Source: an uncultured Pseudomonadota bacterium
Lineage (GTDB): Bacteria > Pseudomonadota > Gammaproteobacteria > Steroidobacterales > Steroidobacteraceae
Reading direction: 5' to 3'
DNA length: 32,175 bases
Assembly (NCBI GenBank): GCA_903885195.1
Contig: CAISHQ010000002.1
Coordinates: forward strand, 1 to 32,175
Numbering within the stretch: the stretch's first letter is position 1; each line of letters begins with the position of its first letter. The position numbers and the translations under genes are program-made. Under the pieces are notes generated by a model that saw nothing but the letters and a program-made list of their open reading frames with translations, was not told the origin of the DNA and did not search any database. This document shows positions 8,975-32,175 of the stretch, one piece after another.

Positions 8975-8994
8975 AGGCGCAGGCGCTCGCGCCA
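8966..8994. terminator. Inverted repeats between convergent genes, possible two-way terminator
   Basis: GCGCCT at 8966-8971 and AGGCGC at 8975-8980 form a six-base-pair stem with the TAG stop codon as its loop. A second short GC-rich repeat, GGCGC-TC-GCGCC, follows at once. They fill the 21-bp gap between the amidohydrolase and the Rieske oxygenase. There is no T-run on either strand, so this is not a standard intrinsic terminator and may only slow transcription from both sides. Confidence 0.35.
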
Positions 8995-8995
8995 G

Positions 8996-10111: not shown

Positions 10112-10144
10112 GGGCCGAGCATACTGCGCCCGGAAAGCGGCACC

Positions 10145-11463: not shown

Positions 11464-12527
11464 CCGTCGCTACCCGGGCTTTTGGTGCTGACGCCAGCAC
11501 TGCCGAAAGTGGCCATATTGCGAAAGAGTGCCACACTGTTGCGCAACAAGGGCAAGGCCAGCAGTGCGCCGCTGCCTTCACCGAGGCGTAAGCCGAGCGA
11601 CAGCAGCGGCTCGATTCGCAGTTGTTCCAAGAGCAGCCGATGGGCGGGTTCCGCCGAGCAATGACTGACGATGCAGCGGCTGAGCGTTCCCGGCTGCATC
11701 CGTTCGGCGAGCAGTGCGGCGACCGTCACCGCGAAGCCATCGATGAGTACCACGGTTCTCGATGCAGCGACGGTGCTGATCGCGGCGGCGAGCGCAGCGA
11801 TTTCGAAGCCACCGTAGCGGCGAAGCAGAGTGATCGCCTCTGCTGCGGCATCGCCTTTCGGCAACGCTTCGGTGGGACGCTCCCGCACTCGCTCGAGCAG
11901 GGCAAGTTTGCGCGCAACCCCGGCGGAGTCGAGTCCCGTTCCGGGACCCACGCAATCGGCCAGCGGCAGGCCCGTGAGCTCGGACAGCAGCAGCGAGCTG
12001 ATCGCCGTGTTGCCGATACCCATCTCGCCGAACAGCATCACTCGATGACCCGCGCGTAGCGCCTCATGCGCCGCCTCGCGCCCTGCGGCGAGTGCGCGCT
12101 CCAGCTCTTCTGCGCTCATCGCGTCGGCATGCAGGATGCTGGCTGTGCCGCGCGCGACTTTGGCCTGCGTCAACTGCGGATGCGGCATGAAGTCGGCATC
12201 CACGCCGACGTCGATGATGCGCAGCGTGCAGCCTGTTTGCGCCGAGAGCACATTGGCCGCTGCGCCGCCGCGCAGGAAGTTCAGCACCATCTGTGCTGTC
12301 ACGGCCCGCGGGTAGGCGCTGACGCCGTCATTGGCCAGACCGTGATCGGACGCGAACAGCAGCAAGCACGCGGTATCAAGCTCGGGCTGCAGTGTTTCCT
12401 GTATCTCGCAGATCTCGGCCACGAGTGTCTCGAGCCGCCCGAGCGATCCTTGCGGTTTGGTCAATTGGTCGAGCCGCGCAAGGGCTGCACGGCGCCACGA
12501 ACCAGCAGAGGAGGCCGTCTCGCTCAC
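11460..12527 (-). CDS. cobT: Nicotinate-nucleotide:dimethylbenzimidazole phosphoribosyltransferase
   Basis: A 355-residue CobT from the GTG at 12527. Family blocks in order: LDQLTKPQGSLGRLE, LLLFASDHGLANDGVSAYP, LRIIDVGVD, the catalytic-region LFGEMGIGNTAISSLL, and the C-terminal LGLRLGEGSGALLALPLLR with the expected glutamate. It activates the lower ligand base to alpha-ribazole 5'-phosphate. GTG 12527 overlaps the btuB stop as GTGA (12524-12527), the same coupling style as its neighbours. Another in-frame GTG at 12557 would add ten residues. No Shine-Dalgarno sequence favours either. It lies between btuB and cobS in one transcription unit. Confidence 0.95.
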   Translation of the reverse strand: MSETASSAGSWRRAALARLDQLTKPQGSLGRLETLVAEICEIQETLQPELDTACLLLFASDHGLANDGVSAYPRAVTAQMVLNFLRGGAAANVLSAQTGCTLRIIDVGVDADFMPHPQLTQAKVARGTASILHADAMSAEELERALAAGREAAHEALRAGHRVMLFGEMGIGNTAISSLLLSELTGLPLADCVGPGTGLDSAGVARKLALLERVRERPTEALPKGDAAAEAITLLRRYGGFEIAALAAAISTVAASRTVVLIDGFAVTVAALLAERMQPGTLSRCIVSHCSAEPAHRLLLEQLRIEPLLSLGLRLGEGSGALLALPLLRNSVALFRNMATFGSAGVSTKSPGSDG

Positions 12528-14389: not shown

Positions 14390-14394
14390 GCAAT

Positions 14395-14462
14395 GTCTCC
14401 CCGAGGACGCTCTCCCGCGCCTCGATAACGTAGTCCACCGGGAAGAGAGGGTTTGGGGAAAC
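14395..14462 (-). promoter_or_regulatory. Ribosome-binding-site sequestering helix in the btuB leader
   Basis: On the minus strand GTTTCCCC (14462 down to 14455) can pair with GGGGAGAC (14402 down to 14395), seven Watson-Crick pairs plus one G-U. The second arm contains the Shine-Dalgarno sequence of btuB. It lies between the riboswitch aptamer and the start codon, so it is a plausible expression platform acting on translation. No folding calculation was made. Confidence 0.4.
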
Positions 14463-14520
14463 AAGCGGACCCTGAAAGGGGCCGACCCGTTCCTGTCTGC
14501 CCACCGCAGCCCGGGATGTC

Positions 14521-14746
14521 GTCGAGGCCGGTCTCCGGGCTCATGGGTTCGGCTTGCGTCGCAAGCACCGACATCGATCGCCTTCCCGCAATCCGGCGTC
14601 GCGCTGGATTGCAGTGGCGGGTTGACCGATGTCACCCATTTACCGTTGCGGGGGCAGCGCCGGAATGGAACCCCAAGGGCTCGCACCGGCTTCCCGTTTC
14701 ACTCCGCCATCCGCAGGACGCGCCTGCAGACACGGAACACCTCGAC
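14521..14746 (-). ncRNA. Cobalamin riboswitch
   Basis: Read on the minus strand, the leader has the conserved cobalamin-riboswitch elements in order: GGGAAGCCGGTGCGAGCC at 14695-14678, CTGCCCCCGCAACGGTAA at 14657-14640, a GCCACTG element near 14618, and the B12 box GAGCCCGGAGACCGGCC at 14542-14526. A closing stem is visible between GTCGAGGT (14746-14739) and GCCTCGAC (14528-14521), with one G-U pair. Binding of adenosylcobalamin should turn off expression of btuB and the coupled cob genes. The aptamer is about 226 nt, in the normal range. It lies 131 bp upstream of the btuB start. Confidence 0.95.
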
Positions 14747-14824
14747 CGGCGCACAATGCACGGGGGGCTGCGGTTTTGCAAATGCATCCGGAGCCTGCGT
14801 CCACAACCAGAGGATGTCGGGTGT

Positions 14825-15973
14825 ATGGTTGACGGCATGAGTGTCGTGGCGCTGCGCGCGGATCGCGTCCTGTTGGCTGACGGGTTCGTGCCCGGAATGA
14901 ATGTTCTCATCGCAGATGGGATCGTGGTTGATGTCTGTCCCGACTCACGACGCCCTCACGACGCATCGGTTCGTGTGCTGGAGGGGGATCTCGTACCGGG
15001 ATTCATCGACCTGCAGGTCAACGGTGGCGGCGGGGTCTTGTTCAATGATCACCCTGATCTCGAGGGTGTCCGTAGTATCGCAGCGGCACATCGACGATTT
15101 GGATCGACGGGTCTGCTGCCCACGGTGATCAGTGACGACCTGAAGGTTGTGGCCGAGGCTATTCGCGCCACAGATGCTGCCATCGAGGCGGGCGTGCCCG
15201 GAGTGCTCGGTCGTCATATTGAGGGGCCCTTTATCAACGTGGCCAAGCGCGGAATCCACGTGGCCGAGAAGATCCAAACTTTGGATGAGCGGGCGCTGGA
15301 CGTTCTGAGCTCGGCACGGCATGGCCGAACGCTCGTCACGCTGGCGCCCGAGCAAGTGCCTGCGGGTGCGATTCGCGAGCTCGTGCGGCGCGGCGTGATC
15401 GTGGCGGCCGGACACACGCTTGCCTCGTATGCGCAACTCGATCTCGCGCGACAGGAAGGACTGCGTGGGTTCACCCACGTCTTCAATGCAATGAGCCCCC
15501 TTGGCAGTCGCGAGCCCGGTGCAGTTGGTGCGGCAGCGGACTTTGACGATTGCTGGGCCGGCGTGATCGCCGATGGGGAGCACGTGCATGCTGCGGCGCT
15601 ACGGTGGATGTTGAAGGCGAAGGGACCTGAGCGGCTCGTGCTGGTGACCGATGCCATGCCTCCGGTAGGCACCACAGCAAGCGCGTTTACGTTGCAGGGC
15701 AGCGAGATTCAAGTGATCAACGGCCGCTGCATCGATCACAGCGGCACGCTGGCTGGATCGGTGCTCGATATGGCTTCTGCCGTGCAGCGCGCGAGTGAGT
15801 TGATGCGAGTGGATCGTGCCGTGGCCGTGCGTATGGCGAGCTCGACACCGGCGTCGGTGCTCGGCCTCGAGCACGAGCGCGGGCACATCGCCGCAGGCTA
15901 TCGAGCGGATTTGGTGTTGCTGTCGTCGGAGGGAGCGGTGCGCGAAGTCTGGGTGGCGGGCGCGACGGGCTGA
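14825..15973 (+). CDS. nagA: N-acetylglucosamine-6-phosphate deacetylase
   Basis: A 382-residue amidohydrolase-fold enzyme with the NagA signatures: GFIDLQVNGGGGVLFND, the metal-binding HIEGPFI, AAGHTLASYAQ, FTHVFNAMSPL with substrate-contacting His and Asn, and the catalytic Asp in LVTDAMPPVG. It removes acetate from GlcNAc-6-P to give GlcN-6-P. ATG 14825 is chosen because AGAGG lies at 14809-14813; ATG 14837 is an alternative, and the longer upstream frame covers the riboswitch. Transcribed divergently from btuB. Its last 76 bp overlap the 3' end of the convergent kinase gene. With murQ and the kinase it forms an amino-sugar recycling group. Confidence 0.95.
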   Translation: MVDGMSVVALRADRVLLADGFVPGMNVLIADGIVVDVCPDSRRPHDASVRVLEGDLVPGFIDLQVNGGGGVLFNDHPDLEGVRSIAAAHRRFGSTGLLPTVISDDLKVVAEAIRATDAAIEAGVPGVLGRHIEGPFINVAKRGIHVAEKIQTLDERALDVLSSARHGRTLVTLAPEQVPAGAIRELVRRGVIVAAGHTLASYAQLDLARQEGLRGFTHVFNAMSPLGSREPGAVGAAADFDDCWAGVIADGEHVHAAALRWMLKAKGPERLVLVTDAMPPVGTTASAFTLQGSEIQVINGRCIDHSGTLAGSVLDMASAVQRASELMRVDRAVAVRMASSTPASVLGLEHERGHIAAGYRADLVLLSSEGAVREVWVAGATG

Positions 15974-19472: not shown

Positions 19473-20885
19473 GTGTCTGAAAGCCTCGCAACGGTTGCCT
19501 ACATCGGCGCAGCCATTCTGTTCATTTTGAGTCTCGGCGGCCTCTCCAACCCGGAGACCTCACGCCGCGGCAATTTCTACGGCATCGTCGGCATGACCAT
19601 TGCCGTGCTCGCCACAGTGCTGGGACCCCGGGTCACGGCAGCGGGAGTGCCGTGGATTATCGGCGCACTCGCGGTGGGCGGGGGTATCGGTCTCTATGCC
19701 GCACGCAAGGTGCAGATGACCCAGATGCCGGAGCTCGTGGCGCTGATGCACAGCCTCGTGGGTCTTGCGGCCTGCCTCGTGGGCTTCGCGAGTTATGTCG
19801 ACACCTCGATCCAGTTCGGGGGTGCGGAGAAGGCCATCCATGAGGTGGAGATCTACATCGGCATCCTGATCGGTGCGGTCACCTTCTCAGGCTCCATCAT
19901 CGCATTCGGCAAACTCTCCGGAAAAATCGGCGGCAAGCCGCTGCTGTTGCCGGGGCGGCATTGGCTCAACCTGATCGCCTTGCTGGTCGTGATCTGGTTC
20001 GGCTATCTCTTCCTGCAAGCGCACGATCCCGCGGCCGGAATGATGCCGTTGATCGTGATGACGGTTATCGCGCTGCTCTTTGGCATCCATATGGTGATGG
20101 CTATCGGCGGTGCGGACATGCCGGTGGTGGTTTCGATGCTCAACAGCTACTCGGGTTGGGCGGCCGCAGCCACCGGGTTCATGCTCGCCAACGATCTGCT
20201 GATCGTGACGGGTGCGTTGGTGGGCTCATCGGGCGCGATCCTCTCGTACATCATGTGTCGCGCGATGAATCGCAATTTCGTCAGCGTCATTGCGGGTGGC
20301 TTTGGTACGGGAGCCGGCGCTGCGTCCGCGGCTTCGGGTGCTGCCCAGCCCGCCGGTGAGGTCGTCGCCGTCAGCGCTGCAGAGACCGCAGAGATGCTGC
20401 GCGCTGCCAAGAACGTCATCATCATCCCGGGCTACGGTATGGCCGTGGCGCAGGCCCAGCACACGGTCTATGAAATCACCAAGCTGCTGCGTGAAAAGGG
20501 CGTCAACGTGCGTTTCGGTATCCACCCGGTTGCAGGTCGCATGCCCGGTCACATGAACGTGCTGCTCGCCGAAGCCAAAGTTCCCTACGACATCGTCCTC
20601 GAGATGGACGAAATCAACGACGATTTCTCTGATACCGACGTGTCGATCGTCATTGGTGCCAACGACATCGTGAACCCGGCTGCGGAGGACGATCCGACAA
20701 GTCCGATCGCCGGCATGCCGGTGTTGCAGGTGTGGAAGTCGAAGACCTCCATCGTCATGAAGCGCTCCATGGCCTCGGGCTACGCGGGTGTCGACAATCC
20801 GCTGTTCTTCAAGGAGAACAATCGGATGTTGTTCGGTGATGCCAAGAAGATGCTCGACGAAGTGCTGGGAGCGCTGAAGGCGTGA
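19473..20885 (+). CDS. pntB: NAD(P) transhydrogenase subunit beta
   Basis: A 470-residue subunit. About nine membrane helices fill residues 5-265, including the [23 protein letters not shown] segment with the proton-channel histidine. The soluble NADP(H)-binding domain III follows, with [68 protein letters not shown] and the C-terminal MLFGDAKKM. It partners PntA. GGAG at 19461-19464 precedes the GTG start. Its stop overlaps the start of the SDR gene as GTGA. Confidence 0.97.
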
Positions 20886-21634
20886 GACTCGCCGGACGAG
20901 TTGCGCTCGTCACCGGCAGCAGCTCGGGTATCGGCCGCGGCGTAGCTCTCGCTTTCGCGAGCGAGGGCGCGGATGTCGTCATCAATCACCCGACCGCTGC
21001 TGAGACCGCGGCGGCCGAGGAGGTCGCGGCCGCGGTTCGCCAGGCCGGGCGCCGCGCACTCGTCGTGCGCGCCGATGTCAGCCAGGAGGCTGAGGTCGAG
21101 CGACTGGTTGCTGCCGCCCGCGATGCCTTCGGACACATCGATATTCTCGTAAACAATGCAGGCATTGCTGCAGCCGCTGCGGTGCACGAGATGACCACCG
21201 AGACCTGGGATCGGGTGCTTGGCGTGCATCTGCGCGGTACGTTCATGATGACTCGCGCGGTGCTCGGCGAGATGTATGCCCGCAACTCGGGTCGCATCAT
21301 CAACACGGCGTCGCAACTCGCGTACAAGGGTGCCGCCGGTTTCAGTGCCTACACGGCAGCGAAGGGCGCCATCATTTCCTTCACCCGCAGCACCGCCCTC
21401 GAGATCGGCGCGCGCAACATCACCGTCAACTGTATCGCGCCCGGCGCGACCCTGACGCCGATACTGGACGATGTACCCGCCGACACGCTCGAGGCTATCC
21501 GACGGGCCATACCGCTCGGGCGCATTGCGGAGGTGGCTGATATCGTTCCGGCTTACGTGTTCCTCGCAGGGGACGATGCGAGGCACTTCCAGGGACAGTG
21601 CCTGAGTCCGAACGGCGGCGACGTATTTCTTTGA
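20882..21634 (+). CDS. Short-chain dehydrogenase/reductase (FabG-like)
   Basis: A 250-residue classical SDR. The cofactor loop is [10 protein letters not shown] at residues 11-20, followed by NNAG near 93. The catalytic Ser-Tyr-Lys set is in [10 protein letters not shown] and YTAAKGA. The C-terminal SPNGGDVFL takes the place of the usual DGGxxxx end. The cofactor is probably NADPH, as in FabG relatives, though the residue after strand 2 (HPTAAET) does not settle it. Substrates in this family are 3-oxoacyl thioesters, sugars or alcohols, and none can be assigned. The GTG start overlaps the pntB stop by 4 bp, so it is translated with the transhydrogenase. The gene ends at a terminator hairpin. 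Confidence 0.88.
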
Positions 21635-21657: not shown

Positions 21658-21677
21658 CTGAGCGTCGCTCAGGTTTT
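21658..21677 (+). terminator. Intrinsic terminator after the pntAB-SDR operon
   Basis: CTGAGC at 21658-21663 and GCTCAG at 21667-21672 form a perfect six-base-pair stem with a three-base loop, followed by G and TTTT. It lies 24 bp after the SDR stop and overlaps the stop codon of the convergent epimerase-like gene. The stem is short for an intrinsic terminator. Confidence 0.55.
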
Positions 21678-22769
21678 CGCATTGAGCACGGTAGTCTCGC
21701 GCTCGGCCGACAGGCCTGCCTTGAGTTCCTGTTGCTCCTTGAGCGGACGCTGCAGGTGCCAGGCCAGCGTATCGCGAGCCGTGACCTCCAGCGATCTGAT
21801 CGTGAGCCCGGCGCGCCGCGCGCGATCAGTGCTCGTCGCGGCGAAGCCCGCACCGTCGCCAACCGGAGGAACCCAGACCGGCATGTCGGACCATGGCGCG
21901 ACGTTTTGCTTCTCCAGAAATTCCGCCGAGCGCCAGATCGGTTTGGCGGGCTGCGCGGGCTTTGCGAGTTTGGACGCGGCCGTGATGGAAGCCTGGATCA
22001 GCTGGCCCATGTTGAATTGTCCCGAAGCCGAGACGATGTTGAAGGTGCCCGCGAGTTGCTGCTCCAACGCAAGCACGGCGAAGGCTGCCAGATCCCGTGC
22101 ATCGATTACTTGAATGGGGTCGGTCGGTTGGCCCGGCGCCAGCATGTCGCCACCGCGGGCGGCGCGGGCAGGCCAGTAGGTGAATCGATCGGTGTTGTCC
22201 TCCGGCCCGACGATCAAGCCGGGTCGCAGCACGATGGTGCGCGCGGCGCCGAAGCTGCGCTCGGCCGCCGTTTCACACGCCGCTTTCAGTGGTCCGTAGG
22301 TGGCCCCGTCGACGGTCTCGGTGGAGGGGTCGGCGAGCTTACCGACGGGCGAGCGCTCATCGTTCGGCGTCGCGAGGCTCGCATAGGCCGAGATCGAGGA
22401 AATGAACAGATATCGGTTTGCCCGCGCCTTAAGTAACTCGCCGGTGAGAGTGACGTGGCGGGGCACGTACCCCGAATTGTCGATGACCGCATCCCAGGAG
22501 CCTGTAGCCAGACCTTCGAGTTGTCCGTTGCGGTCACCGAGGATCCGTTCGATTTGTGGCAGGCGGTCCGTCTTGGTGCGTCCACGATTGAAGAACGTCA
22601 GCGAATGACCGCGCGAGAGTGCGTACTCGGCCATGTGCAGGCCGATGAATCGGGTGCCGCCGAGGATGAGGATGCGCAGGGGCTTGGTCGCCTTGGTGGC
22701 TTGCGCCCAGGTGGACTGTGAGCTGAGGCCCACTGCGGCGGTGGCAGCCAGAAATGTTCTGCGTTTCAT
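21669..22769 (-). CDS. NAD-dependent epimerase/dehydratase-like protein with Tat-type signal
   Basis: A 366-residue extended-SDR protein. The first 22 residues are a signal: KRRTFLAATAAVGLSSQSTWAQ, with a twin-arginine core and an AxA-like cut site. A Rossmann domain follows with the loop LGGTRFIG, then FISSISAY and a Y-G-P-L-K catalytic pair. The C-terminal part ends in a helical region with DTLAWHLQ, typical of epimerase-like proteins. A cytoplasmic nucleotide cofactor with a Tat signal suggests it is exported with NAD(P) already bound. AAAGGA lies 9 bases before ATG 22769, inside the end of the methyltransferase gene. It is the last gene of the bchI-bchD-methyltransferase group. The substrate is unknown. 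Confidence 0.87.
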   Translation of the reverse strand: MKRRTFLAATAAVGLSSQSTWAQATKATKPLRILILGGTRFIGLHMAEYALSRGHSLTFFNRGRTKTDRLPQIERILGDRNGQLEGLATGSWDAVIDNSGYVPRHVTLTGELLKARANRYLFISSISAYASLATPNDERSPVGKLADPSTETVDGATYGPLKAACETAAERSFGAARTIVLRPGLIVGPEDNTDRFTYWPARAARGGDMLAPGQPTDPIQVIDARDLAAFAVLALEQQLAGTFNIVSASGQFNMGQLIQASITAASKLAKPAQPAKPIWRSAEFLEKQNVAPWSDMPVWVPPVGDGAGFAATSTDRARRAGLTIRSLEVTARDTLAWHLQRPLKEQQELKAGLSAERETTVLNAKT

Positions 22770-22775
22770 GCGAGG

Positions 22776-23405
22776 TCATCCTTTCATTGGGGTGGCAGTG
22801 CCGCTCGTGAACCAGCCCACGATACGCGGCAAGCGTTCGACATATCGCTCCGCAACGAGTTCCGAATCGATGGCGAAGCCTGCGTGTTCTATGAGTGTAC
22901 GAATTGGTCGATTCAAATGGCAGCCTCCGCCCACGCGCTTTTGCAGCGGAGTCAACCGATGCTGCCACTTCGCGATGCGCGGGTCGGGTGATTGGCCGTG
23001 TTCGAGAAACAAAAAGCGTCCGCTCGGATGCAAGACGCGTCGAATTTCCGCGAGGGCTTGATCCACTTGGGCAATCGAACACAGCGTGAACGTGCTGACC
23101 ACGGTGTCGAAACTGTCGGTGTCAAACGGCAGGCGTTCGGCGAACAGTGCGTGACTGATCACCTCCCGACCGCTGTCGGCGATATGTTTTCTCGCACGCT
23201 GAGACAGCATCGCATCAGGCTCGACGATCTCAATGCGGCGGACGCCAGAGGGGTAGTAGGGCAGATTTGCGCCCGTGCCGAAGCCGATCTCGAGAATCCG
23301 ACCTTGCGCGCTGCCCACCACCGGAGCGCGATGTCGGCCGAGTCGCGGATCGTGCATCACGGCCTCGAGCAGCCGCGGCAGGACATGTCTGGCGTAGAAA
23401 CCCAC
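22776..23405 (-). CDS. Class I SAM-dependent methyltransferase (UbiE/METTL7-like)
   Basis: A 209-residue protein. From GTG 23405 it begins GFYARHVLPRLLEAVM, the usual opening of METTL7/UbiE-like bacterial methyltransferases, which is why this start is preferred to a longer one inside bchD. SAM-binding motif I is ILEIGFGTGANLPYYP, then IEIVEPDAML, LPFDTDSFDTVVSTFTLCSI and the post-core VLHPSGRFLFLEHG. The start is 10 bp after the bchD stop. In chlorophyll synthesis the step after Mg chelation is methylation by BchM. This protein does not look like BchM to me, so a tetrapyrrole role is only suggested by position. Confidence 0.88.
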   Translation of the reverse strand: MGFYARHVLPRLLEAVMHDPRLGRHRAPVVGSAQGRILEIGFGTGANLPYYPSGVRRIEIVEPDAMLSQRARKHIADSGREVISHALFAERLPFDTDSFDTVVSTFTLCSIAQVDQALAEIRRVLHPSGRFLFLEHGQSPDPRIAKWQHRLTPLQKRVGGGCHLNRPIRTLIEHAGFAIDSELVAERYVERLPRIVGWFTSGTATPMKG

Positions 23406-23415
23406 GGAGAGGATT

Positions 23416-25176
23416 CTAGGGCGTCGCGACCGCCGTGCGTGCTGCATTGGCGATGGCGGCACTGCCTGCGCTTGGCATGTAGAGGTATTCGCCGCCCAGC
23501 CAGCGCGCCAGCTTCTGGCCGGCCCCGTGACTGACGAAGCTGCGCTGTGTGTCGATCAGCAGGGTCTTCAAGCCGCGTGCGGCGACCGTAACAGCGATAC
23601 CTTGCAGTTCGTCATCGACGCCGGCGCGCTCGGCCCGCAGGCCGATGTTGGCGCGCCCATCAGTCAGCAGCACGAGCACGACATTGCCGTAGCCCTTGCG
23701 CTTCGCCTGTTCGGCCACCTCAAGAGTCAGCAGCAAAGTGGCGGCCAGCGGTGTACCGCCACCGGTCGGAATCTGATCGACCGCACGACGCAGCAACTCG
23801 ACGCTGCTGGTGGGAGGCAGCAGCAGGTCGGCAGATTGCGCGCGAAACGACATCAAGGCCACCTTGTCACGATTCACGTAGGCCTGCTCGAGCAGCGAGT
23901 GCACGGCGCCTTTTGCCTGCCGCATTCGATTGAGAGCCATGCTGCCGCTCGCGTCTACTGCGAAGATGAATAGGGCACCGGCCTTGCTCTTGTATCGTTT
24001 GATGCGAATGTCTTCGGCGCGCAGTGTGAGATTGCCTTGCCGGCGAGCGCGAACCCGTTGCCACGGCGCGGCGGCTCGAAGCGTGGCGATCACATCGATG
24101 CGCTGGCCCTTGAGGGTGCCTGGAACACTTGCGACGTGTCGGCCACGAACGCCCTCTGTGCTGCCGCGTGATCCGGCGCGGCTGCGACGGGATCGGCTGA
24201 AAGGCAAGGTCTCGAGGACGGCAGGCAGTTCCGTGTCGACGGCGTCGAGGATCTCCTCGGCCATTTCCAAGCTGTCGGTCGAGGGTCCCTGCGCCTCGGT
24301 CGCGCTGGGCTCCGGGCTCTCCTGCGGCGGCGGCGGGCTCTCGCTCGGGGGTGACTCCTGCGTCGGGTGCCGGGTGGCTCGCGGTAGGAGAACGAGGCGT
24401 ACGGCGACCTCCAGATCCTCGCGTTGCACGCTATCGCGCAGGGCGAGTGCAGCGCTCGCCCGCGCTGCCAGACACGCGAAGAGGTCTGCACGATGACCTT
24501 GTACGCCGAGTGCTACGGCGGTGGCGCAGAGTTCCTGCTGCTGCTCCGCGGTCAACTCGACGGCGTCCAATGACGTACGCGCGACCTCGAGTACGCCGCG
24601 CAACATCTCGATTTCGTCTTGCCATGCCCGGAGCGTGGGGTTGAGATGACGCTCGACGATGCTCAAGCGCGCGTCGCTGGTTCCTGCCGAGGGCATGCGG
24701 ACGATAAGACCCATCCGATCGAGCAGGTGGGCTCTCGGCTGGCCCTCGGCGGGGTCGTAGCTGCCTACGAGACGGAAGCGAGTGGCTACGCGCCGGCTGA
24801 GGCCATCGCGCTCGATGCGCAACTCCCCATCCTCCAGCGCTCCGAGCAAAGTGTTGGCTGTACCTTCGGCCAGTAAATTGCAGGCCTCGACGAGCAGCAC
24901 ACCGCCGTCGGCACGCCCGAGCACGCCGTTACGAATCACGCGTTCGCCGCGTTGCAGGGTCGCTTCGAGGTCGAGTCCTCCGAGCAGCGCTTCCTGATCG
25001 CAGCCGAGTGGCAGCACGACCTGATGGACCCCGGGCAGCAAATCCGCGAGGCCGTGCATCAGCGCGCTTTTGCCGCTGCCCGGTGGACCGACGAATACCA
25101 CGCCACGCAGACGCGGTTCGAGCGCCAGCATGAGTAGCGCGAGTCGCGGCGTGTCCATCGCGACCAGCGCAGGCAA
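23416..25176 (-). CDS. bchD: Magnesium chelatase subunit D
   Basis: A 586-residue protein (first codon TTG 25176; ATG 25158 would remove six residues). The N-terminal AAA+ module has an intact-looking Walker A, GPPGSGKS at residues 30-37, and an LLVEACNLL region in place of a strict Walker B. A proline/glutamate-rich linker spans about residues 270-305. The C-terminal von Willebrand-type domain carries the metal-site motif DASGSM near residue 408, then GGGTPLA and LLTDGRANIG. BchD forms a double ring with BchI and links it to BchH. The bchI stop lies 17 bp upstream and the methyltransferase follows after 10 bp. In several characterised D subunits the P-loop is degenerate, so the intact one here is worth noting. 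Confidence 0.93.
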   Translation of the reverse strand: MPALVAMDTPRLALLMLALEPRLRGVVFVGPPGSGKSALMHGLADLLPGVHQVVLPLGCDQEALLGGLDLEATLQRGERVIRNGVLGRADGGVLLVEACNLLAEGTANTLLGALEDGELRIERDGLSRRVATRFRLVGSYDPAEGQPRAHLLDRMGLIVRMPSAGTSDARLSIVERHLNPTLRAWQDEIEMLRGVLEVARTSLDAVELTAEQQQELCATAVALGVQGHRADLFACLAARASAALALRDSVQREDLEVAVRLVLLPRATRHPTQESPPSESPPPPQESPEPSATEAQGPSTDSLEMAEEILDAVDTELPAVLETLPFSRSRRSRAGSRGSTEGVRGRHVASVPGTLKGQRIDVIATLRAAAPWQRVRARRQGNLTLRAEDIRIKRYKSKAGALFIFAVDASGSMALNRMRQAKGAVHSLLEQAYVNRDKVALMSFRAQSADLLLPPTSSVELLRRAVDQIPTGGGTPLAATLLLTLEVAEQAKRKGYGNVVLVLLTDGRANIGLRAERAGVDDELQGIAVTVAARGLKTLLIDTQRSFVSHGAGQKLARWLGGEYLYMPSAGSAAIANAARTAVATP

Positions 25177-25193
25177 TGGCAGGCGGTGGCTGA

Positions 25194-26210
25194 TCAGGCG
25201 AGCGCCTCGGCCAGCACGCGGCGCACGCGCTCATCGTCGGCGGCAGGTTCCAGCGGATCTTTGCGCAGGCGGTGTGCGAGGGCGAGCGGCGCCACGCGCT
25301 TGACGTGTTCCGGCACGGCGGTCGTCGCACCCTCGTAGGCAGCGAGTGCGAGCGCAGCGCGGGTGATGGCGAGTTCGCCGCGGTGTCCGTCGATGGCGAG
25401 CAGATCGCACAGGCGTGCAGCCAGCAGCAGAGCCTCGTTCGACACCTCCACGTGCGGACGCCGTGCGATGGCCTTGACGAGGGTGCCGCGCAACTTCGCC
25501 TGGGCACTCGAGTACCGCTTGCAGAACGCGACAGGGTCGGTTTCGAAGGCGAGACGGCGTTTTACGATCTCCACGCGTTGCGAGACATCGGATACGGTGC
25601 GAATGCGCGCATGCAAACCAAAGCGATCGAGCAACTGCGGTCGCAAGTCGCCTTCCTCCGGGTTGCCCGACCCGACAAGTACGAAACGCGCAGGATGACG
25701 GATGCTCAGGCCTTCGCGTTCAACCACGTTCACTCCGCTTGCGGCCACATCGAGCAGCAGATCGACGAGGTGGTCCTCGAGCAGATTGACTTCATCGATG
25801 TAGAGAAATCCACGGTGGGCGGCGGCGAGCAGTCCGGGTGAGAACGCCTGCACGCCGTCGATGAGTGCGCGCTCGATATCGACTGAGCCGACCACGCGGT
25901 CTTCGGTGGCGCCGAGCGGCAAATCGACCACAGGCACGGTTCGGCGAATCGCCTTGAGGTTGGAGGTCTTTCGGCTGCAATGCAGGCAGTCGGGTGCGGG
26001 TGAGGCCGCATCGCAGTTGTACGGGCACCCGGCTACCACGGTCGTCATCGGCAGCAGCTGTGCCAGCGCCCGCACAGCAGTGCTTTTCGCGGTACCACGG
26101 TGGCCGGTGACCAAGACACCGCCGATCGAAGGGTCGATCACGGTCAACAGGATGGCGAGCTTCAGCTCTTCCTGACCGACGATCGCCACAAAGGGGAAAC
26201 TCTGTTGCAC
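25194..26210 (-). CDS. bchI: Magnesium chelatase ATPase subunit I
   Basis: A 338-residue AAA+ ATPase. Walker A is GHRGTAKST at about residues 36-44. A cysteine group (GCPYNCDAASPAPDCLHC) follows. The chelatase-specific LPLGATEDRVVGSVDIERAL is next, then Walker B FLYIDEVNLL, and the sensor region LVGSGNPEEGDLRPQLLDRFG. It supplies ATP energy for inserting Mg2+ into protoporphyrin IX. GAGGAGG lies just before ATG 26210, the clearest ribosome-binding site in the window. It heads the leftward operon and is divergent from bchH, with 65 bp between the two starts. The I/D/H set argues for Mg chelatase rather than another AAA+ chelatase. Confidence 0.95.
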   Translation of the reverse strand: MQQSFPFVAIVGQEELKLAILLTVIDPSIGGVLVTGHRGTAKSTAVRALAQLLPMTTVVAGCPYNCDAASPAPDCLHCSRKTSNLKAIRRTVPVVDLPLGATEDRVVGSVDIERALIDGVQAFSPGLLAAAHRGFLYIDEVNLLEDHLVDLLLDVAASGVNVVEREGLSIRHPARFVLVGSGNPEEGDLRPQLLDRFGLHARIRTVSDVSQRVEIVKRRLAFETDPVAFCKRYSSAQAKLRGTLVKAIARRPHVEVSNEALLLAARLCDLLAIDGHRGELAITRAALALAAYEGATTAVPEHVKRVAPLALAHRLRKDPLEPAADDERVRRVLAEALA

Positions 26211-26231
26211 ATGACCTCCTCAGCCTCAATG

Positions 26232-26249
26232 TGTCAACATAACAAGACA
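26232..26249. promoter_or_regulatory. Candidate PpsR/CrtJ operator (TGT-N12-ACA)
   Basis: TGT at 26232-26234 and ACA at 26247-26249 are spaced by exactly 12 bases, matching the TGT-N12-ACA consensus of the photosynthesis repressor PpsR/CrtJ. It lies over the -10 box of the bchI promoter and between the two divergent chelatase genes. The consensus is loose, so it would turn up by chance in a small percentage of gaps this size. No ppsR gene is in the window. Confidence 0.45.
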
Positions 26250-26263
26250 GTCTGGGGTGTCAA
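26236..26263 (-). promoter_or_regulatory. Promoter of the bchI operon
   Basis: Reading leftward, a perfect -35 TTGACA (26263-26258) and a -10 TATGTT (26241-26236, four of six matches) are separated by 16 bp. They lie 26 bp upstream of the bchI start and just before its strong ribosome-binding site. No comparable rightward promoter for bchH was found in the same gap. Confidence 0.6.
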
Positions 26264-26275
26264 TCGGGGTGGGGC

Positions 26276-29200
26276 ATGAGAACGATTACCTTCATCGTCG
26301 GCATCGAGCGGTTCAACGCCGGGGTCTGGACCGACGTCGAGCGGCGACTCGCTGAGGCAGGCGTCGCCGTTCGGTTGAAGCGCTACCACGACGCCCACGT
26401 CGATCAGCACGATGCGCAGTTGGCGGCGGACCTCAAGTCCTCCGACGTCGTCTTCATGAGCCTGATCAACATGCGACCGCAGGCCGACTGGATCGCGGCG
26501 CAGCTTGCGGATTCCAAGGCAGCGGCCGTGTTCGCCTACGAGAGCATGCCGGAAGTCATGCAGTTGACCAAAGTCGGCGAGCACCGCTTCAAGGAAAAGA
26601 AGGGCGAAGCACCGAAGCCCGTGCAGTTTCTCATGCGCCTGATCACGCGCGGTCGTGACGAGGATGCACTCTACGCGTACACCAAGCTCGTGAAGATCGC
26701 CTCGAAAATGCTGCCGCTCATCCCCGAGAAGCTCGCGGGTTTTCGCACCTGGCTCGGTGTGAATCTCTATTGGAATCAGCCGGACGCCCGGAACATTACC
26801 GAGATGGTCAAGCTGATCGTGCGCGACACATTTGCCGAGAGCGTTCCCATTGCACCGGTCAGCATCATCCCGACGATGGGCTGCTGGGATCCGGTGAGCG
26901 GCGAGATGTTCGCCGACGCGAATGCCTATATGAAGTGGGCCACCCGAAACGGACGATATCGCAAGGGGCAGCCACTCGTCGCCGTGCTCGGCATGCGCAA
27001 GCATGTGGTACAGCGGCTGGGCTATTTGCAGGAACTCATCCGGGGCATCGAAGCGCGAGGCATGGCCGCCTTGCCGGTATTCGTCTCAGGTATTGAGGCA
27101 CACGTTGCGGTGCGTGAGTGGCTCGTGCATCAACCGATCGACGCCTTCATCTCGACGATGGGTTTCTCCATCGTCGGCGGCCCGGCCTCGTCGACCAAAC
27201 CTGGGCAGTACCACGAGACGGCCGCAGACCTGCTTGCCAAACTCGATGTCCCCTACGTGATCGCTCAGCCTCTGCTGATGCAAGAAGAGCGCGAGTGGAA
27301 GGAACGCGGCGTCATCTCGATGCAGTCAGTCGTCATGTACGACCTGCCCGAAATGGATGGTGCTGCGAGTAGCGTGGCGCTCGGTGCGATCAAAGATGGT
27401 GAGCTGACGGCGGTGCCGGATCGCATCGCGCGCGCCGTCGATCAGGTCGAGGGCTGGATTCGGCTGCGCCGCAAGCCAGCCGCGGAGCGACGGGTTGCGG
27501 TCGTTCTCTACAATTTCCCGCCCGGTCTCGGCAAAGCGGGCACTGCAGCGCTGCTCGATGTGCCGGCTTCGGTGTCGGCGCTGATCAAGCGTTTGAAAGA
27601 TGAAGGCTACCTCACGGGCAGGGCCCCCACGGACGTGGCGGAATTCGCGCAGCGACTCGCGGATCTCGAGCGCGGCGAGATGGGCAAGACGATCTCGCTC
27701 ACGGAGTACCGGCAGCTGATGGTTGGCCGCTCGGGCGATCGCATCGAACGGTTCTGGGGTCAGGCTCCGGGGGACATTGCACCGGCGGGTCGCGACGGCA
27801 TTCGACTCAACACGCTGGAATTCGGCAACGTACTCGTCGGTTTGCAGCCGACGCTGGGCGTGCCTGGCGATCCGATGAAGTTGCTGTTCGAGCGTAACTT
27901 CACGCCGCATCATCAATATGCAGCCTTCTACGCATGGCTGAAACAGGGCTGGAAGGCGGACGCAATCATCCACGTCGGCATGCACGGTACAGCTGAGTGG
28001 ATGCCGGGGCTGCAGGCCGCCTTGACTGCCGATTGCTGGTCGGATGTGTTGCTGGGTGGTGTGCCGCATCTCTATCTCTACCCACTCAATAACCCGGCCG
28101 AAGCTGCGATTGCGCGGCGACGCAGCTACGCCACCATCATCAGTCATGCCATCCCGCCGTACGCGCGTGCGGGTCTCTACAAACAGCTCGCCGACGTGCG
28201 CACACGACTCGGCGATGCGGCAGACGATCTGTCGGGGACACTGCCTGAATTGCCCCGTCGCGCGGACGAGTCCGTATCGGCATACCGGCAGCGGGTGACC
28301 GCGTGGCTGGAGCAGGTCGAACAGCGTTTGATCGTCGATGGACTGCACGTGTTTGGTGCCGTGCCGGATCGTCGTCGTGCCACGACGCTCGTTGAGGCGG
28401 CGATGGATGTACCGAGACGCGGCAAGCCGGGGCTGCGTGCCTTGATGAGCGAGGCCGGAATGGGTGCTGCTGAGTCGAGCGCGCTGCGCGATGCGCTCAT
28501 CGAGCGATGCGTCATGGGCCGTGAAGATCCTGCGGTCGTATGGCGTTCCACAACGGCAGCAGCCGTGCCGGCGTCACTGGCCGAGTTCATCACCGAGGGT
28601 CGTGGCATCGTGTCCGGCATGTCGCGCTGTCACGAGGAGCTCGACGCTGTCGTCCATGCACTCGATGGTGGCTTCATCCGCCCAGCGTATGGTGCCGATC
28701 CCGTGCGTGCTGGTGCGGGCGCGCTGCCTTCGGGGCGCAATATCCACGGCATCGATCCGTGGCGTTTGCCGACGGATCACGCGCTTGAACGCGGTCGACA
28801 GATGGCCGACGCGTTGCTGTTCAAGCATCGCGCCGAGCACGGCAGTTACCCGCGCACGGTGGCGCAGGCCCTCTGGGCCATGGACACCATCAAGAGCGAG
28901 GGCGAGGGGCTCGGTGTTGTACTCGCGCTCGTAGGGGCCGAGCCGCAGCGTGACGGGCAGGGCAAGATCCATCGGTTTGCCTTGCAGCCTTTGGCGCAAC
29001 TCGGTCGGCCGCGTATCGATGTGCTGCTCGATGTGTCGTCTATCTTCCGCGACACCTTCCAGATGAGTCTCGATCTGCTCGATACCTTGTTCCGTGAGGC
29101 GGCGACCGTCGACGAATCACCGGAACAGAACTACGTGCGTGCTCATGCGCAGGAGATGCTGGCGGCCGGGCGTTCGTTGGAGGAGGCAACCGCGCGTATC

Positions 29201-29914
29201 TTCACGCAGGCGCCGGGTCTCTACGGCACTGGGGTCGATGAGGTCATCGAGGAGAGTCAGTGGGAAGATACGGCGCAGCTCGCTGATCTTTACCAGAAGC
29301 GCAACGGCTATACGGCCGGCGGTGCCCGCAACGGTGCGCCCGCTCCGGAAGCGCTGCGCAGCATGCTGTCCAAGGTCGATCACGTCTTCCAGGCAATCGA
29401 TTCGGTTGAATACGGACTGACCGACATGACCCACTACTACGGTCATAGCGGTGCGATGAAACTTGCCGCCGACCGCGAGCGGGGAGCCCCCGTGTCGCTG
29501 ACCTATGCCGAGACCTTCACTGGCGAGGTACGAATCAGTGCGTCGGATGACCTGCTGCGTCTTGAGGCGCGGGCCAAGTTGCTGAATCCGAAGTGGTACG
29601 AGGGAATGCTTGCGCACGGCCATAGCGGTGCGGCCGAGATCGGTAATCGCTTTACGCATCTGGTGGGCTGGGGTACGTTGGGAAGCGTAGAACAGTGGGT
29701 GTTCGACGACGCCGCCAAGACGTATCTGCTCGATGAGACGATGCGTCGTCGGCTCGAAGCAGCCAACCCTCAGGCGGTACGCAACGCCGTGGGTCGCCTG
29801 CTCGAGGCGAATGGTCGCGGCATGTGGAAGGCCGATGCAGCAACTTTGGAACAATTGCAGGGCATGTACGCCGAGATCGAGGATCGACTCGAGGGTGTCG
29901 GCGTCGCGGCCTAA
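26276..29914 (+). CDS. bchH: Magnesium chelatase subunit H (porphyrin-binding)
   Basis: A 1212-residue protein of normal BchH length. Family blocks in order: VVFMSLINMRPQ and YESMPEVMQLTKVG near the N-terminus, NLYWNQPDARNITEMVKLI, VVLYNFPPGLGKAGTAALLDVPAS near residue 410, and FGNVLVGLQPTLGVPGDPMKLLF. Then comes the active-site region HVGMHGTAEWMPG with its conserved Glu, LYLYPLNNPAEAAIARRRSYATIISH, and FGLTDMTHYYGHSG-like elements near the C-terminus (VEYGLTDMTHYYGHSGAM). It binds protoporphyrin IX and receives Mg2+ with BchI/BchD. CobN of aerobic cobaltochelatase is homologous, but this fits BchH better, with some divergent positions. A GGGGTGGGG stretch precedes ATG 26276. The next gene overlaps its last 20 bp. 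Confidence 0.9.
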   Translation: MRTITFIVGIERFNAGVWTDVERRLAEAGVAVRLKRYHDAHVDQHDAQLAADLKSSDVVFMSLINMRPQADWIAAQLADSKAAAVFAYESMPEVMQLTKVGEHRFKEKKGEAPKPVQFLMRLITRGRDEDALYAYTKLVKIASKMLPLIPEKLAGFRTWLGVNLYWNQPDARNITEMVKLIVRDTFAESVPIAPVSIIPTMGCWDPVSGEMFADANAYMKWATRNGRYRKGQPLVAVLGMRKHVVQRLGYLQELIRGIEARGMAALPVFVSGIEAHVAVREWLVHQPIDAFISTMGFSIVGGPASSTKPGQYHETAADLLAKLDVPYVIAQPLLMQEEREWKERGVISMQSVVMYDLPEMDGAASSVALGAIKDGELTAVPDRIARAVDQVEGWIRLRRKPAAERRVAVVLYNFPPGLGKAGTAALLDVPASVSALIKRLKDEGYLTGRAPTDVAEFAQRLADLERGEMGKTISLTEYRQLMVGRSGDRIERFWGQAPGDIAPAGRDGIRLNTLEFGNVLVGLQPTLGVPGDPMKLLFERNFTPHHQYAAFYAWLKQGWKADAIIHVGMHGTAEWMPGLQAALTADCWSDVLLGGVPHLYLYPLNNPAEAAIARRRSYATIISHAIPPYARAGLYKQLADVRTRLGDAADDLSGTLPELPRRADESVSAYRQRVTAWLEQVEQRLIVDGLHVFGAVPDRRRATTLVEAAMDVPRRGKPGLRALMSEAGMGAAESSALRDALIERCVMGREDPAVVWRSTTAAAVPASLAEFITEGRGIVSGMSRCHEELDAVVHALDGGFIRPAYGADPVRAGAGALPSGRNIHGIDPWRLPTDHALERGRQMADALLFKHRAEHGSYPRTVAQALWAMDTIKSEGEGLGVVLALVGAEPQRDGQGKIHRFALQPLAQLGRPRIDVLLDVSSIFRDTFQMSLDLLDTLFREAATVDESPEQNYVRAHAQEMLAAGRSLEEATARIFTQAPGLYGTGVDEVIEESQWEDTAQLADLYQKRNGYTAGGARNGAPAPEALRSMLSKVDHVFQAIDSVEYGLTDMTHYYGHSGAMKLAADRERGAPVSLTYAETFTGEVRISASDDLLRLEARAKLLNPKWYEGMLAHGHSGAAEIGNRFTHLVGWGTLGSVEQWVFDDAAKTYLLDETMRRRLEAANPQAVRNAVGRLLEANGRGMWKADAATLEQLQGMYAEIEDRLEGVGVAA

Positions 29915-31172
29915 GAGTGAACGCGCCGCGCGCTCCCGCCCGTGGCGCGCGTTGGCGCTTGTTCTGGTTTCCGGGCTTGGACTGGTTGCCTGCGAGCGAG
30001 AGCCGCAAGGTGCCGTGGGTGTTGCCGATGCCGGCTATCAAGCAACGCTCATCGAGCAACTGATCGATGCGAAGCCCGGGCAGGTGATCGAGATTCCACC
30101 GGGTCGGTACGCATTCGATCGAAGCCTTACCCTACGCACCGATGGAGTGACCCTGCGTGGCGCAGGCATGGATAAGACCGTGCTGACCTTTGCGGGGCAA
30201 AAAAGCGGCGCTGAGGGTCTGCTCGTCAATGCGAGCGGATTCACGCTCGAGAACCTCGCCATCGAAGACACCAAGGGCGATGCGGTTAAAATCAACGAGG
30301 GCGAGCGCATCACCTTGCGCCGGCTACGCATCGAGTGGACGGGTGGACCCAAAACCACCAACGGCGCTTACGGTCTGTATCCAGTTCGCACGCGCAAGGT
30401 GCTGATCGAGGATTGCGTGGTGCGCGGCGCATCGGATGCCGGAATTTACGTTGGGCAGTCGACGGACATCATCGTTCGCCGCAATCGGGTCGAGTTCAAC
30501 GTCGCCGGCATCGAAATCGAAAACTCTCGTCGCGCCGATGTGTACGACAACGAGGTCACGCGCAACACGGGCGGTATCTTGGTATTCAACATGCCGAACT
30601 TGCCTGAGGCGGGCGTCGGCACGCGGGTGTTTAACAACCGCATCTACGAGAACAACACCGCGAATTTCGCTGCCAAGGGCACCGCTGTGGCGAGCGTTCC
30701 TGCAGGCTCCGGGGTCGTCATCAATGCCAACGATCAGGTAGAGATCTTCGACAATGCGCTGCGTGACAATGCGACCGCGCACATCATCATCTCGAGCTAT
30801 TTTTCGACCGGTTATATGAACTCCTACAGCGTGGCCCCCGGGTTCGATCCCTACCCCGAAGCGATCCACGTGCATTCGAACCGCTACACCGGCGGTGGCG
30901 ACAGTCCCGACGGGCTCGATCTGAAGGCGCTCAAGCTGGCGATGTTCGGTCTCGGCGGGCGTCTGCCGCCCGTGCTCTGGGACGGCTATATCGATACGAA
31001 GAAGCTCATCGACGGTCGATTGCCGGCCGATCAGGCGCTCTGCATTCGCGACGCCGGAGCGGTCCTCAATGCCGATGGGCCCGGCAAGTATCGCAACCCC
31101 GCCCTCGATGAAAAGTCGTTTCGTTGCGAATTGCCGCCGCTGAGGGCGGTGTCCTGGGAACCGGCGGGATGA
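29895..31172 (+). CDS. Parallel beta-helix lipoprotein (TIGR03805-type)
   Basis: A 425-residue protein. The N-terminus is a lipoprotein signal: basic RPKSERAARSRPWR, a hydrophobic stretch, and the lipobox LVAC. The mature protein is a right-handed parallel beta-helix with repeats of the form xGVTLRGAG, SGFTLENLAIEDTKGDAVKI, VLIEDCVVRGASDAGIYV, IIVRRNRVEFNVAGIEIENS, DVYDNEVTRNTGGILV and RVFNNRIYENN. The GTG at 29895 is the only start that gives a full signal; it overlaps bchH by 20 bp. From memory this is the TIGR03805 family, which sits beside a TIGR03806 diheme cytochrome, exactly the next gene. Function unknown; probably anchored to the outer membrane facing the periplasm. Confidence 0.85.
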   Translation: MSASRPKSERAARSRPWRALALVLVSGLGLVACEREPQGAVGVADAGYQATLIEQLIDAKPGQVIEIPPGRYAFDRSLTLRTDGVTLRGAGMDKTVLTFAGQKSGAEGLLVNASGFTLENLAIEDTKGDAVKINEGERITLRRLRIEWTGGPKTTNGAYGLYPVRTRKVLIEDCVVRGASDAGIYVGQSTDIIVRRNRVEFNVAGIEIENSRRADVYDNEVTRNTGGILVFNMPNLPEAGVGTRVFNNRIYENNTANFAAKGTAVASVPAGSGVVINANDQVEIFDNALRDNATAHIIISSYFSTGYMNSYSVAPGFDPYPEAIHVHSNRYTGGGDSPDGLDLKALKLAMFGLGGRLPPVLWDGYIDTKKLIDGRLPADQALCIRDAGAVLNADGPGKYRNPALDEKSFRCELPPLRAVSWEPAG

Positions 31173-32175
31173 GATTACGGGACCTGCGATTTCTTTGTTT
31201 TTTCGCTTTACTGTGCGTCGCAGGGTGTGGGCGCATGACGCCCCCGCAGTTTCATGCGCAGACCAATCCTGAGCGCTTGTCGGACTGGGGCGTGCTGTAT
31301 ACCGACCAAGGCGCGCTACGAGTCGCCGAAGGCGTGCAGGTGTATCGATTGGCGACGCCTCTCTTCAGTGACTACGCCCAGAAGTTACGCACGGTATGGT
31401 TGCCGCCCGGGCAGTCGGCGCGGTACTCGCCATCGTCCGTGTTCGAGTTCCCGGTCGGCACGGTCATCAGCAAGACCTTCTACTACCGGCGTGCCGCCCA
31501 AGATGGTGATCGTGTATCCGAAGCGCCTAATCCAGAGGCGACGAAGCTCGACCTGCGCGATACCCGACTGATCGAGACTCGGCTGCTGGTCAGGCGCGAG
31601 AGTGGGTGGGTGGCGTTGCCCTATGTCTGGAACGAGGACCAGACTGAGGCCCGGTTGACCCGCTCAGGTGCCTCGCTTGCTCTGCGGCGGGTTCGGGATG
31701 ACGGTGGCGAAGAGCCGTTCACCTACATGGTTCCCGACAGCAATCAATGCGCGGGCTGTCACGCGACCAACGTTAAAGCCGGTCAGCTGCAACCGATCGG
31801 GCTCAAGGCGCGCCACCTGCCGGCCGAGCAACTCGGTGCCTGGTCGAGGGCGGGCATATTGCAAGGCATGCCCTTGGCAACCGATCTACCGCGGGCAATC
31901 GACTGGACCGATGAGTCGATCGACGTTGGATCGCGGGCGCGGGCTTATCTCGACATCAACTGCAGTCACTGCCATAACCGCAGCGGTCCAGCCGACACCT
32001 CGGGTTTGGTGCTCGATTTGAGCGCCGAGCCGGACGTGGCGATGGGCGTGTGCAAGCCGCCGGTCGCGGCGGGACAGGGCACGGGTAACCGGCGCTTCGG
32101 GATCGTCCCGGGTCGGCCTGAAGAGTCGATCCTGTTGTATCGCATGGAGTCGACCGACCCGGGAGCCATGATGCC
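31169..32175 (+). CDS. SO2930/HNE_0200-type diheme c-type cytochrome lipoprotein, cut by the window end
   Basis: About 335 residues are visible and the frame is open at the window end. The signal ends in a lipobox, VAGC, with the lipidated Cys at 20. Two heme-c motifs are present: CAGCH at 194-198 (DSNQCAGCHATN) and CSHCH at 265-269 (LDINCSHCHNRSGPA). Between them lies the GLKARHLP segment. The order matches the TIGR03806 family, partner of TIGR03805 beta-helix proteins (from memory). It should carry electrons or act as a small periplasmic oxidase or peroxidase, but no activity is known to me. Its ATG overlaps the beta-helix stop as ATGA (31169-31172), so bchH, the beta-helix gene and this gene form one translationally linked unit. 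Confidence 0.88.
   Translation, partial: MRLRDLRFLCFFALLCVAGCGRMTPPQFHAQTNPERLSDWGVLYTDQGALRVAEGVQVYRLATPLFSDYAQKLRTVWLPPGQSARYSPSSVFEFPVGTVISKTFYYRRAAQDGDRVSEAPNPEATKLDLRDTRLIETRLLVRRESGWVALPYVWNEDQTEARLTRSGASLALRRVRDDGGEEPFTYMVPDSNQCAGCHATNVKAGQLQPIGLKARHLPAEQLGAWSRAGILQGMPLATDLPRAIDWTDESIDVGSRARAYLDINCSHCHNRSGPADTSGLVLDLSAEPDVAMGVCKPPVAAGQGTGNRRFGIVPGRPEESILLYRMESTDPGAMM

Follow-up and report, generated by a model that had tools for sequence, protein, structure and literature searches.

Mg-chelatase genes with a PpsR-type operator in a genus of Steroidobacteraceae with an apparently late-only bacteriochlorophyll pathway: possible use of scavenged chlorins

The stretch of DNA analyzed here (the window, 32,175 bp) is an entire contig, C2, of a draft genome from the family Steroidobacteraceae (2.72 Mb, 97% complete, 201 contigs). 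It encodes all three subunits of Mg-chelatase in two arms diverging from a 65-bp gap, bchI and bchD on one side and bchH on the other, and each subunit scores above its NCBIfam equivalog cut-off: the ATPase subunit BchI (25194-26210, minus strand; TIGR02030, 502 bits), subunit D with its AAA lid and VWA domains (23416-25176, minus strand; TIGR02031, 596 bits), and the porphyrin-binding subunit BchH, a paralogue of what we call clade B (26276-29914, plus strand; TIGR02025, 1212 bits). The question that this locus raises is what such an enzyme does in a genus where genes for the steps that usually follow Mg insertion were not found. We put at about 50% the probability that this genus, g1, makes bacteriochlorophyll a (BChl a) from scavenged chlorophyll-derived chlorins by means of a chelatase under control of PpsR, the known early genes being missing.

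The photosynthesis cluster and its missing early genes

A photosynthesis cluster exists in the window genome (G000; genomes, contigs and loci are named by our own handles where necessary). On contig C153, bchP, bchG, ppsR, bchF, puhA, puhB, puhC, pufC, bchZ, bchY, bchX, bchC, bchO, pufL and pufM all score over the cut-offs; lhaA, a PUCC-family protein, was named by position, and among the crt genes only crtI-family proteins (subfamily TIGR02734) pass the cut-off, the other crt names being taken from weaker matches and position. The original prediction, made from the window alone, had allowed that the locus might be the edge of a rearranged photosynthesis cluster, and had suggested looking for pufLM, bchXYZ and crt genes in the genome. 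A cluster with the late genes is indeed there, but it lies on a different contig, and the early bch genes are missing from it.

According to PMC12654162, the usual proteobacterial cluster comprises bchFNBHLM, bchCXYZ, bchIDO, bchGP, puf, puh and crt. The g1 cluster is similar in that it keeps the bchCXYZ-puf, puh-lhaA-bchF and ppsR-bchG-bchP order of G122, a genome from a sister genus, as well as the PpsR gene and PpsR-type operators. It differs in being devoid of bchN, bchB, bchH, bchL, bchM and acsF, while the chelatase is encoded elsewhere and its BchH belongs to another clade; the observation that the window departs from the usual cluster order was correct.

Gene content was compared in 20 genomes, that is, ten from g1, nine from other genera of the family, and G017 from the same order. 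The nine sister genomes had been chosen for a BchH over the cut-off, so that early genes are expected in them. AcsF and BchM score over the cut-off in none of the ten g1 genomes and in all nine sisters, BchE in 0/10 and 3/9, and LPOR in 0/10 and 0/9, respectively. Weaker matches were seen for BchM, BchE and LPOR, not for AcsF, and the same was observed in control genomes. PF00148 matches number two or three per g1 genome and represent bchY and bchZ only in all ten (a third match being a split piece); there are four or five of them in eight sisters, and three in G239. LPOR acting in place of DPOR was considered and rejected, as none of the 20 genomes has it over the cut-off (best score 70.7 bits vs 331).

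In G122 the order is lhaA-bchM-bchL-bchH-bchB-bchN-bchF, while bchF directly adjoins lhaA in all seven g1 clusters that span this junction (G000, G300, G073, G203, G187, G275 and G138; positions from open reading frames (ORFs) or tblastn). In G000 these two genes overlap by ATGA; there are overlaps among puhB, puhC and puhE as well, and acsF is not found between them. When bchM, bchH and acsF of G122 were used as queries, matches were obtained in all eight sister regions (G122 included) and in none of the 11 g1 regions, four of which stop short of the bchF-lhaA place. This pattern suggests a loss of those steps that were tested between Mg-protoporphyrin IX and chlorophyllide a, and of no later tested step. 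Since only the late half of the pathway is present, chlorophyllide a would be needed from outside.

The main rival explanation is that bchM, acsF and bchNBL reside on a plasmid or chromid that was lost in binning, in which case the pathway would be complete and a Chloroflexi-type chelatase would have replaced the native one. A chelatase with a PpsR-type operator (see below) makes immediate sense in a complete pathway, and plasmid-borne photosynthesis genes are treated in PMC6052148. Still, we consider this explanation unlikely, as the early genes are missing in all ten assemblies, with estimated completeness of 93-100% and one of them, G203, in about 20 contigs. Moreover, a conserved operon has lost five genes from its interior, acsF is no longer present in the puh group, and two members are also without the chelatase. 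Mis-binning of the chelatase module itself is unlikely, because in G203 it shares a single 458-kb contig with the photosynthesis cluster, at a distance of about 150 kb.

One further gene group of the cluster was noted. Genes for a P450, an ATP-grasp protein and a membrane protein (TM249) lie between crtB and crtD in the g1 regions that cover this place (L089, 15278-18695), and among the eight fetched sister regions they are found only in that of G170. They were rejected as salvage-specific candidates, since G170, which has BchM, AcsF and BchE, has them too; perhaps they are involved in carotenoid tailoring.

Type, selection and probable control of the chelatase

The window BchH is 57-59% identical to the proteins of four metagenome-assembled genomes (MAGs) of Chloroflexi, 46% to that of Chloroflexus and about 43% to those of Chlorobiaceae, while its identity to BchH of the sister genera is 33-36%, and to that of Aureimonas, 35%. 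BchI is 67% identical to BchI of one of these Chloroflexi MAGs, L013. In the BchH tree, for which the program flagged the CobN outgroup as a long branch and 11 rows, including those of Chloroflexi, as having unusual letter composition, eight g1 rows and L010 form a clade with 100/100 support beside the four Chloroflexi MAG proteins. Further members of clade B are a Chloroflexus paralogue and one of those from Chlorobi; the other one from Chlorobi is in clade A, together with the sister genera, Aureimonas, cyanobacteria and an additional, incomplete BchH of MAG L013. To judge by the tree topology, the module was probably acquired by the ancestor of the genus by transfer.

Chloroflexus aurantiacus has three bchH genes, one of them homologous to bchS/T, according to PMC9316378. 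The window BchH resembles the green-bacterial BchS/BchT in that it falls into clade B together with the Chloroflexus, Chlorobi and Chloroflexi MAG proteins, although the equation of clade B with BchS/BchT follows the naming in that source and our own reading, the named proteins of Chlorobaculum tepidum being outside the tree. In the Chloroflexi genomes G296, G298 and G299, a canonical BchH (by the best BLAST match) lies beside acsF and some of bchB, bchL and bchM, and a second BchH, of the g1 type, is encoded at another place; in G297 only a clade B BchH and two PF00148 genes were seen. By contrast, g1 carries the clade B paralogue alone. Unlike Chloroflexus and the three MAGs with both types, it has this protein as its sole BchH, and the early genes are gone. 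The idea that in Chloroflexi, too, truncated pathways could be recognized by a clade B BchH was discarded, as G296, G298 and G299 also carry the canonical BchH with early genes.

Two observations were made on other genomes of this comparison. In G299 (L256, contig C381, 5062-9690) a NifH-like gene is followed by genes for two PF00148 proteins (338 and 429 bits), perhaps a nitrogenase. In G017 a complete bchI-bchD-bchH set with a clade B BchH lies beside an RlmJ-family gene (L187, G017:C26:10000-29712, at 8926-15939); this genome lacks any match to PF00148, AcsF or BchE, and its BchM matches stay below the cut-off, making it a case of chelatase without chlorophyllide reductase genes.

The three genes of the module are under purifying selection. 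In the genus pairs that were compared, dN/dS ranges over 0.03-0.15 for bchH, 0.05-0.15 for bchI and 0.07-0.25 for bchD, the values for wider pairs being rough, with dS above 1. The loop HVGMHGTAEWMPGLQ of the window BchH contains Glu 574, which aligns with a Glu in 4zhj, and a Glu is present at this position in every displayed row of the alignment; we take it to be the catalytic Glu of the H subunit. The common form of the loop in the displayed clade B rows is GMHGxxEWMPGxQ. All g1-type gammaproteobacterial rows differ at seven of the 190 columns that are otherwise conserved, both in clade A and in the remainder of clade B. A more distant homologue of the window BchH by sequence (E 4e-94) is the heme dechelatase HmuS (PDB 9d26) of the CobN/ChlH superfamily, which, by its name, acts in tetrapyrrole demetallation; the window module keeps BchI and BchD, which points to Mg insertion. 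The divergent core is predicted to encode a functioning Mg-chelatase of the Chloroflexi/Chlorobi paralogue type.

The gap between bchI and bchH contains a strict operator site of the PpsR/CrtJ type, of the form TGTC-N10-GACA (TGTCAACATAACAAGACA, 26232-26249, no strand assigned), and it is the sole strict site of the window. In 32 kb 0.50 such sites are expected, and at least one occurred in 36 of 100 shuffles, while the expectation for 65 bp is about 0.001. Relatives from the same genus came from a BchH scan of named genomes, limited to the 80 best loci, and from a search across 296 genomes of the order. Among them are 11 distinct module-bearing genomes: G000, G300 (L008), L012, G073, G203, G251, G138, G275, G301 (L010), G261 (L011) and G302 (L009). 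In one more genome, G265, only a fragment of bchH is present, where the contig ends, and no bchI over the cut-off. Eight of the 11 modules have a strict site in the gap (G000, G300, L012, L010, G073, G203, G251 and L009), which in G251 is far longer than in the others (935 bp), and G261 has a relaxed site only.

A similar site is located 54-75 bp from the bchC start in seven g1 clusters, and PpsR itself is encoded on C153 (TIGR02040, 491 bits). Over 701 kb of sequence, 26 strict sites were found vs 10.7 expected under equal base frequencies; of these, 11 are located within mechanically called ORFs. This applies also to the module sites of G073 and G203, for which the ORF starts had been called too far upstream. 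A promoter-like site overlaps the window operator, though the number of promoter-like sites in this region does not clearly exceed the chance expectation (3 vs 1.7 expected, standard deviation 1.3). The module appears to have been placed under the photosynthesis repressor PpsR, which would bind at this site.

Neighbours of the chelatase core

The original prediction had described seven genes in two divergent arms, all of which are present according to profile matches and ORF coordinates, and had suggested that they could form a new metallo-tetrapyrrole system with export and electron transfer. Downstream of bchD on the minus strand are genes for a Methyltransf_11 protein (22776-23462) and a protein similar to NAD-dependent epimerases (21669-22769; PF01370), the latter with an RR motif in a signal-like N-terminus, as read by eye. 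On the plus strand bchH is followed by a gene for a parallel beta-helix, lipoprotein-like protein (29895-31172, starting at 29895 or 29952; TIGR03805, 439 bits, over the cut-off, for the slice from 29919) and by one for an SO2930-type diheme cytochrome (from ATG 31169, open at the contig end, 32175; TIGR03806, 323 bits, cut-off 313). Two CxxCH motifs, CAGCH and CSHCH, were read in the translation of the cytochrome, whose Pfam match, PF13442, scores under its cut-off; the gene is cut off by the assembly, since the window is the whole contig.

The spacing within the arms, said to be at most 17 bp, is only roughly so. The beta-helix gene may start at GTG 29895, overlapping bchH by 20 bp, or at TTG 29952, leaving a gap of 37 bp; bchD may start at TTG 25176 or ATG 25158, at 17 or 35 bp from bchI; and an alternative start of the methyltransferase, GTG 23405, gives a 10-bp gap to bchD. 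As some of the starts are uncertain, the distances between genes can change by some tens of bases.

Among the related modules, the recurring part is the divergent bchH|bchI-bchD core alone. The right flank of bchH is readable in nine genomes (G000, G300, G073, G203, G251, G138, G275, G301 and G265), and the beta-helix gene adjoins bchH in two of them, G000 and G300, the latter (L008) being the nearest relative, with a BchH 95% identical to that of the window. The beta-helix/cytochrome pair is likewise confined to these two, so that the bchH/TIGR03805/TIGR03806 order, whose recurrence in several genera had been proposed as a check, was found in 2/9 right flanks only. Among ten readable left flanks, the epimerase gene is on the bchD side in three (G000, G300 and L012), and the methyltransferase gene in two (G000 and G300). 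The flanks are occupied by a Cys/Met PLP enzyme and a fatty-acid hydroxylase in G073 and G203, by a saccharopine dehydrogenase and a His phosphatase in G138, and by an FAD enzyme and a His phosphatase-like gene in G251. As the flanks differ between genus members, the core occupies several places with changing neighbours, and the four genes that flank it in the window (for the epimerase, methyltransferase, beta-helix protein and cytochrome) are local neighbours.

The close spacing and co-orientation of all these genes in G000 and L008 are what speaks for one metallo-tetrapyrrole system made of the chelatase, methyltransferase, Tat epimerase, beta-helix lipoprotein and diheme cytochrome. Given the other flank genes of G073, G203, G138 and G251, we regard it as highly improbable: only the core recurs, hence there is no evidence for a tetrapyrrole system with export and electron transfer, and this part of the prediction was not borne out.

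The methyltransferase was also considered as a new BchM and rejected, since TIGR02021 is not among its 22 matches and the gene is absent beside bchD in L012 and seven further readable genomes. This bears on another explanation, namely, that BchM, the cyclase and the protochlorophyllide reductase have been replaced by unrelated enzymes and that a complete de novo pathway, unknown in part, begins with the chelatase. It would account for a chelatase that is under purifying selection and has a PpsR-type operator, yet whose usual product has no known consumer in the genus. We find it improbable: three separate steps would each need a non-homologous substitute, the local methyltransferase accompanies bchD in just 2/10 relatives, and the SDR protein of the window (20882-21634) matches general families similar to 3-oxoacyl reductases.

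Further upstream of the module, the window contains genes for CobS, a DBI_PRT (CobT-type) phosphoribosyltransferase, a His phosphatase and a BtuB-like TonB receptor (8996-14686; for the receptor, TIGR01779, 506 bits vs the cut-off of 600), with a Rieske oxygenase gene adjoining. The composition of this group suggests corrinoid salvage.

A possible role in chlorin salvage

In the scheme that we favour, chlorophyll-derived chlorins released by other phototrophs would be taken up by the cell. Chlorophyllide a would enter the pathway at BchF/BchXYZ, and Mg-free pheophorbide a, the presumed substrate of BchHID, would be re-metallated to chlorophyllide a, which would then be converted to BChl a by BchF, BchXYZ, BchC, BchG and BchP, the reaction centre being kept. 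Given the late-only pathway and the operator shared with it, the one obvious use of the chelatase would be to restore the metal to demetallated chlorins, for example pheophorbide a. In its most specific form, a free-living anoxygenic phototroph that is unable to make chlorophyll de novo and re-inserts Mg into pheophorbide a by an acquired, PpsR-controlled chelatase, followed by BchF, BchXYZ, BchC, BchG and BchP, the proposal is a tentative one, less likely than not.

Several points weigh against salvage by way of the chelatase. Pheophorbide a, too, is without the free carboxyl that protoporphyrin monomethyl ester lacks, and for this reason its re-metallation would need a specificity other than that of the enzyme from C. 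tepidum. The latter, BchSID, perhaps of a related type, converts protoporphyrin IX to Mg-protoporphyrin and is unable to chelate the monomethyl ester, according to PMC3931815. None of the seven genus-wide changes in BchH is inside the loop motif, and one, Gly to Ala 582, is eight residues past the catalytic Glu. The modules of G138 and G275 are without the operator, while G149 and G187 have neither bchH nor bchI over the cut-offs, yet retain the late genes. These two genomes are placed beside the module-bearing G138 and G261 by a tree of BchX, BchY, BchZ, BchC, PufL and PufM, and because of this nesting they look like module losses or assembly gaps. All genus genomes used are drafts, so that the early genes may lie on an unbinned plasmid. 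Finally, no chlorophyllide uptake system was identified; there are leads only, in the form of TonB receptors encoded nearby and an exported hydrolase.

Of these leads, the exported alpha/beta hydrolase is encoded divergently from bchO (L090, 2689-3678). Its gene was found in 6/11 genus regions, or 6/8 of those covering bchO, and in 0/8 sister regions; it is possibly a dephytylase, although among solved structures LipS and monoacylglycerol lipases come closest to it. A TonB-dependent receptor gene is situated about 1.5 kb from bchP (L088, 5225-7282), with counterparts of 64-82% identity in G300, G275 and G138; in G073 and G203 there is only a distant match (31%) in the vicinity of bchP.

The two members without the module also bear on a different role for the chelatase, in which Mg-protoporphyrin would be made as a signal, or protoporphyrin diverted from heme, rather than for pigment, and the late genes would use scavenged chlorophyllide. 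That protoporphyrin IX is taken by BchSID of C. tepidum (PMC3931815) agrees with such a role, and so does the fact that these two members manage without the module. A three-subunit, ATP-using enzyme would be a less economical means of making a signal alone, and we know of no receptor for one, although no search for it was made; we hold this role to be improbable.

Salvage of chlorophyllide by anoxygenic phototrophs has not been found reported among the open-licence papers listed (titles and abstract openings, preprints excluded). UBA964 is described in PMC10976687 as a freshwater phototroph of Steroidobacterales; no link between it and g1 was found.

If the chelatase of this genus does serve salvage of chlorins, the photosynthetic pigment would be a shared good, with one phototroph running on the chlorophyll waste of others, and Mg-chelatase would gain a second role, in salvage. 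Moreover, pufM-based surveys of aerobic anoxygenic phototrophs would read differently, since some of the cells counted in them would depend on other phototrophs for their pigment.

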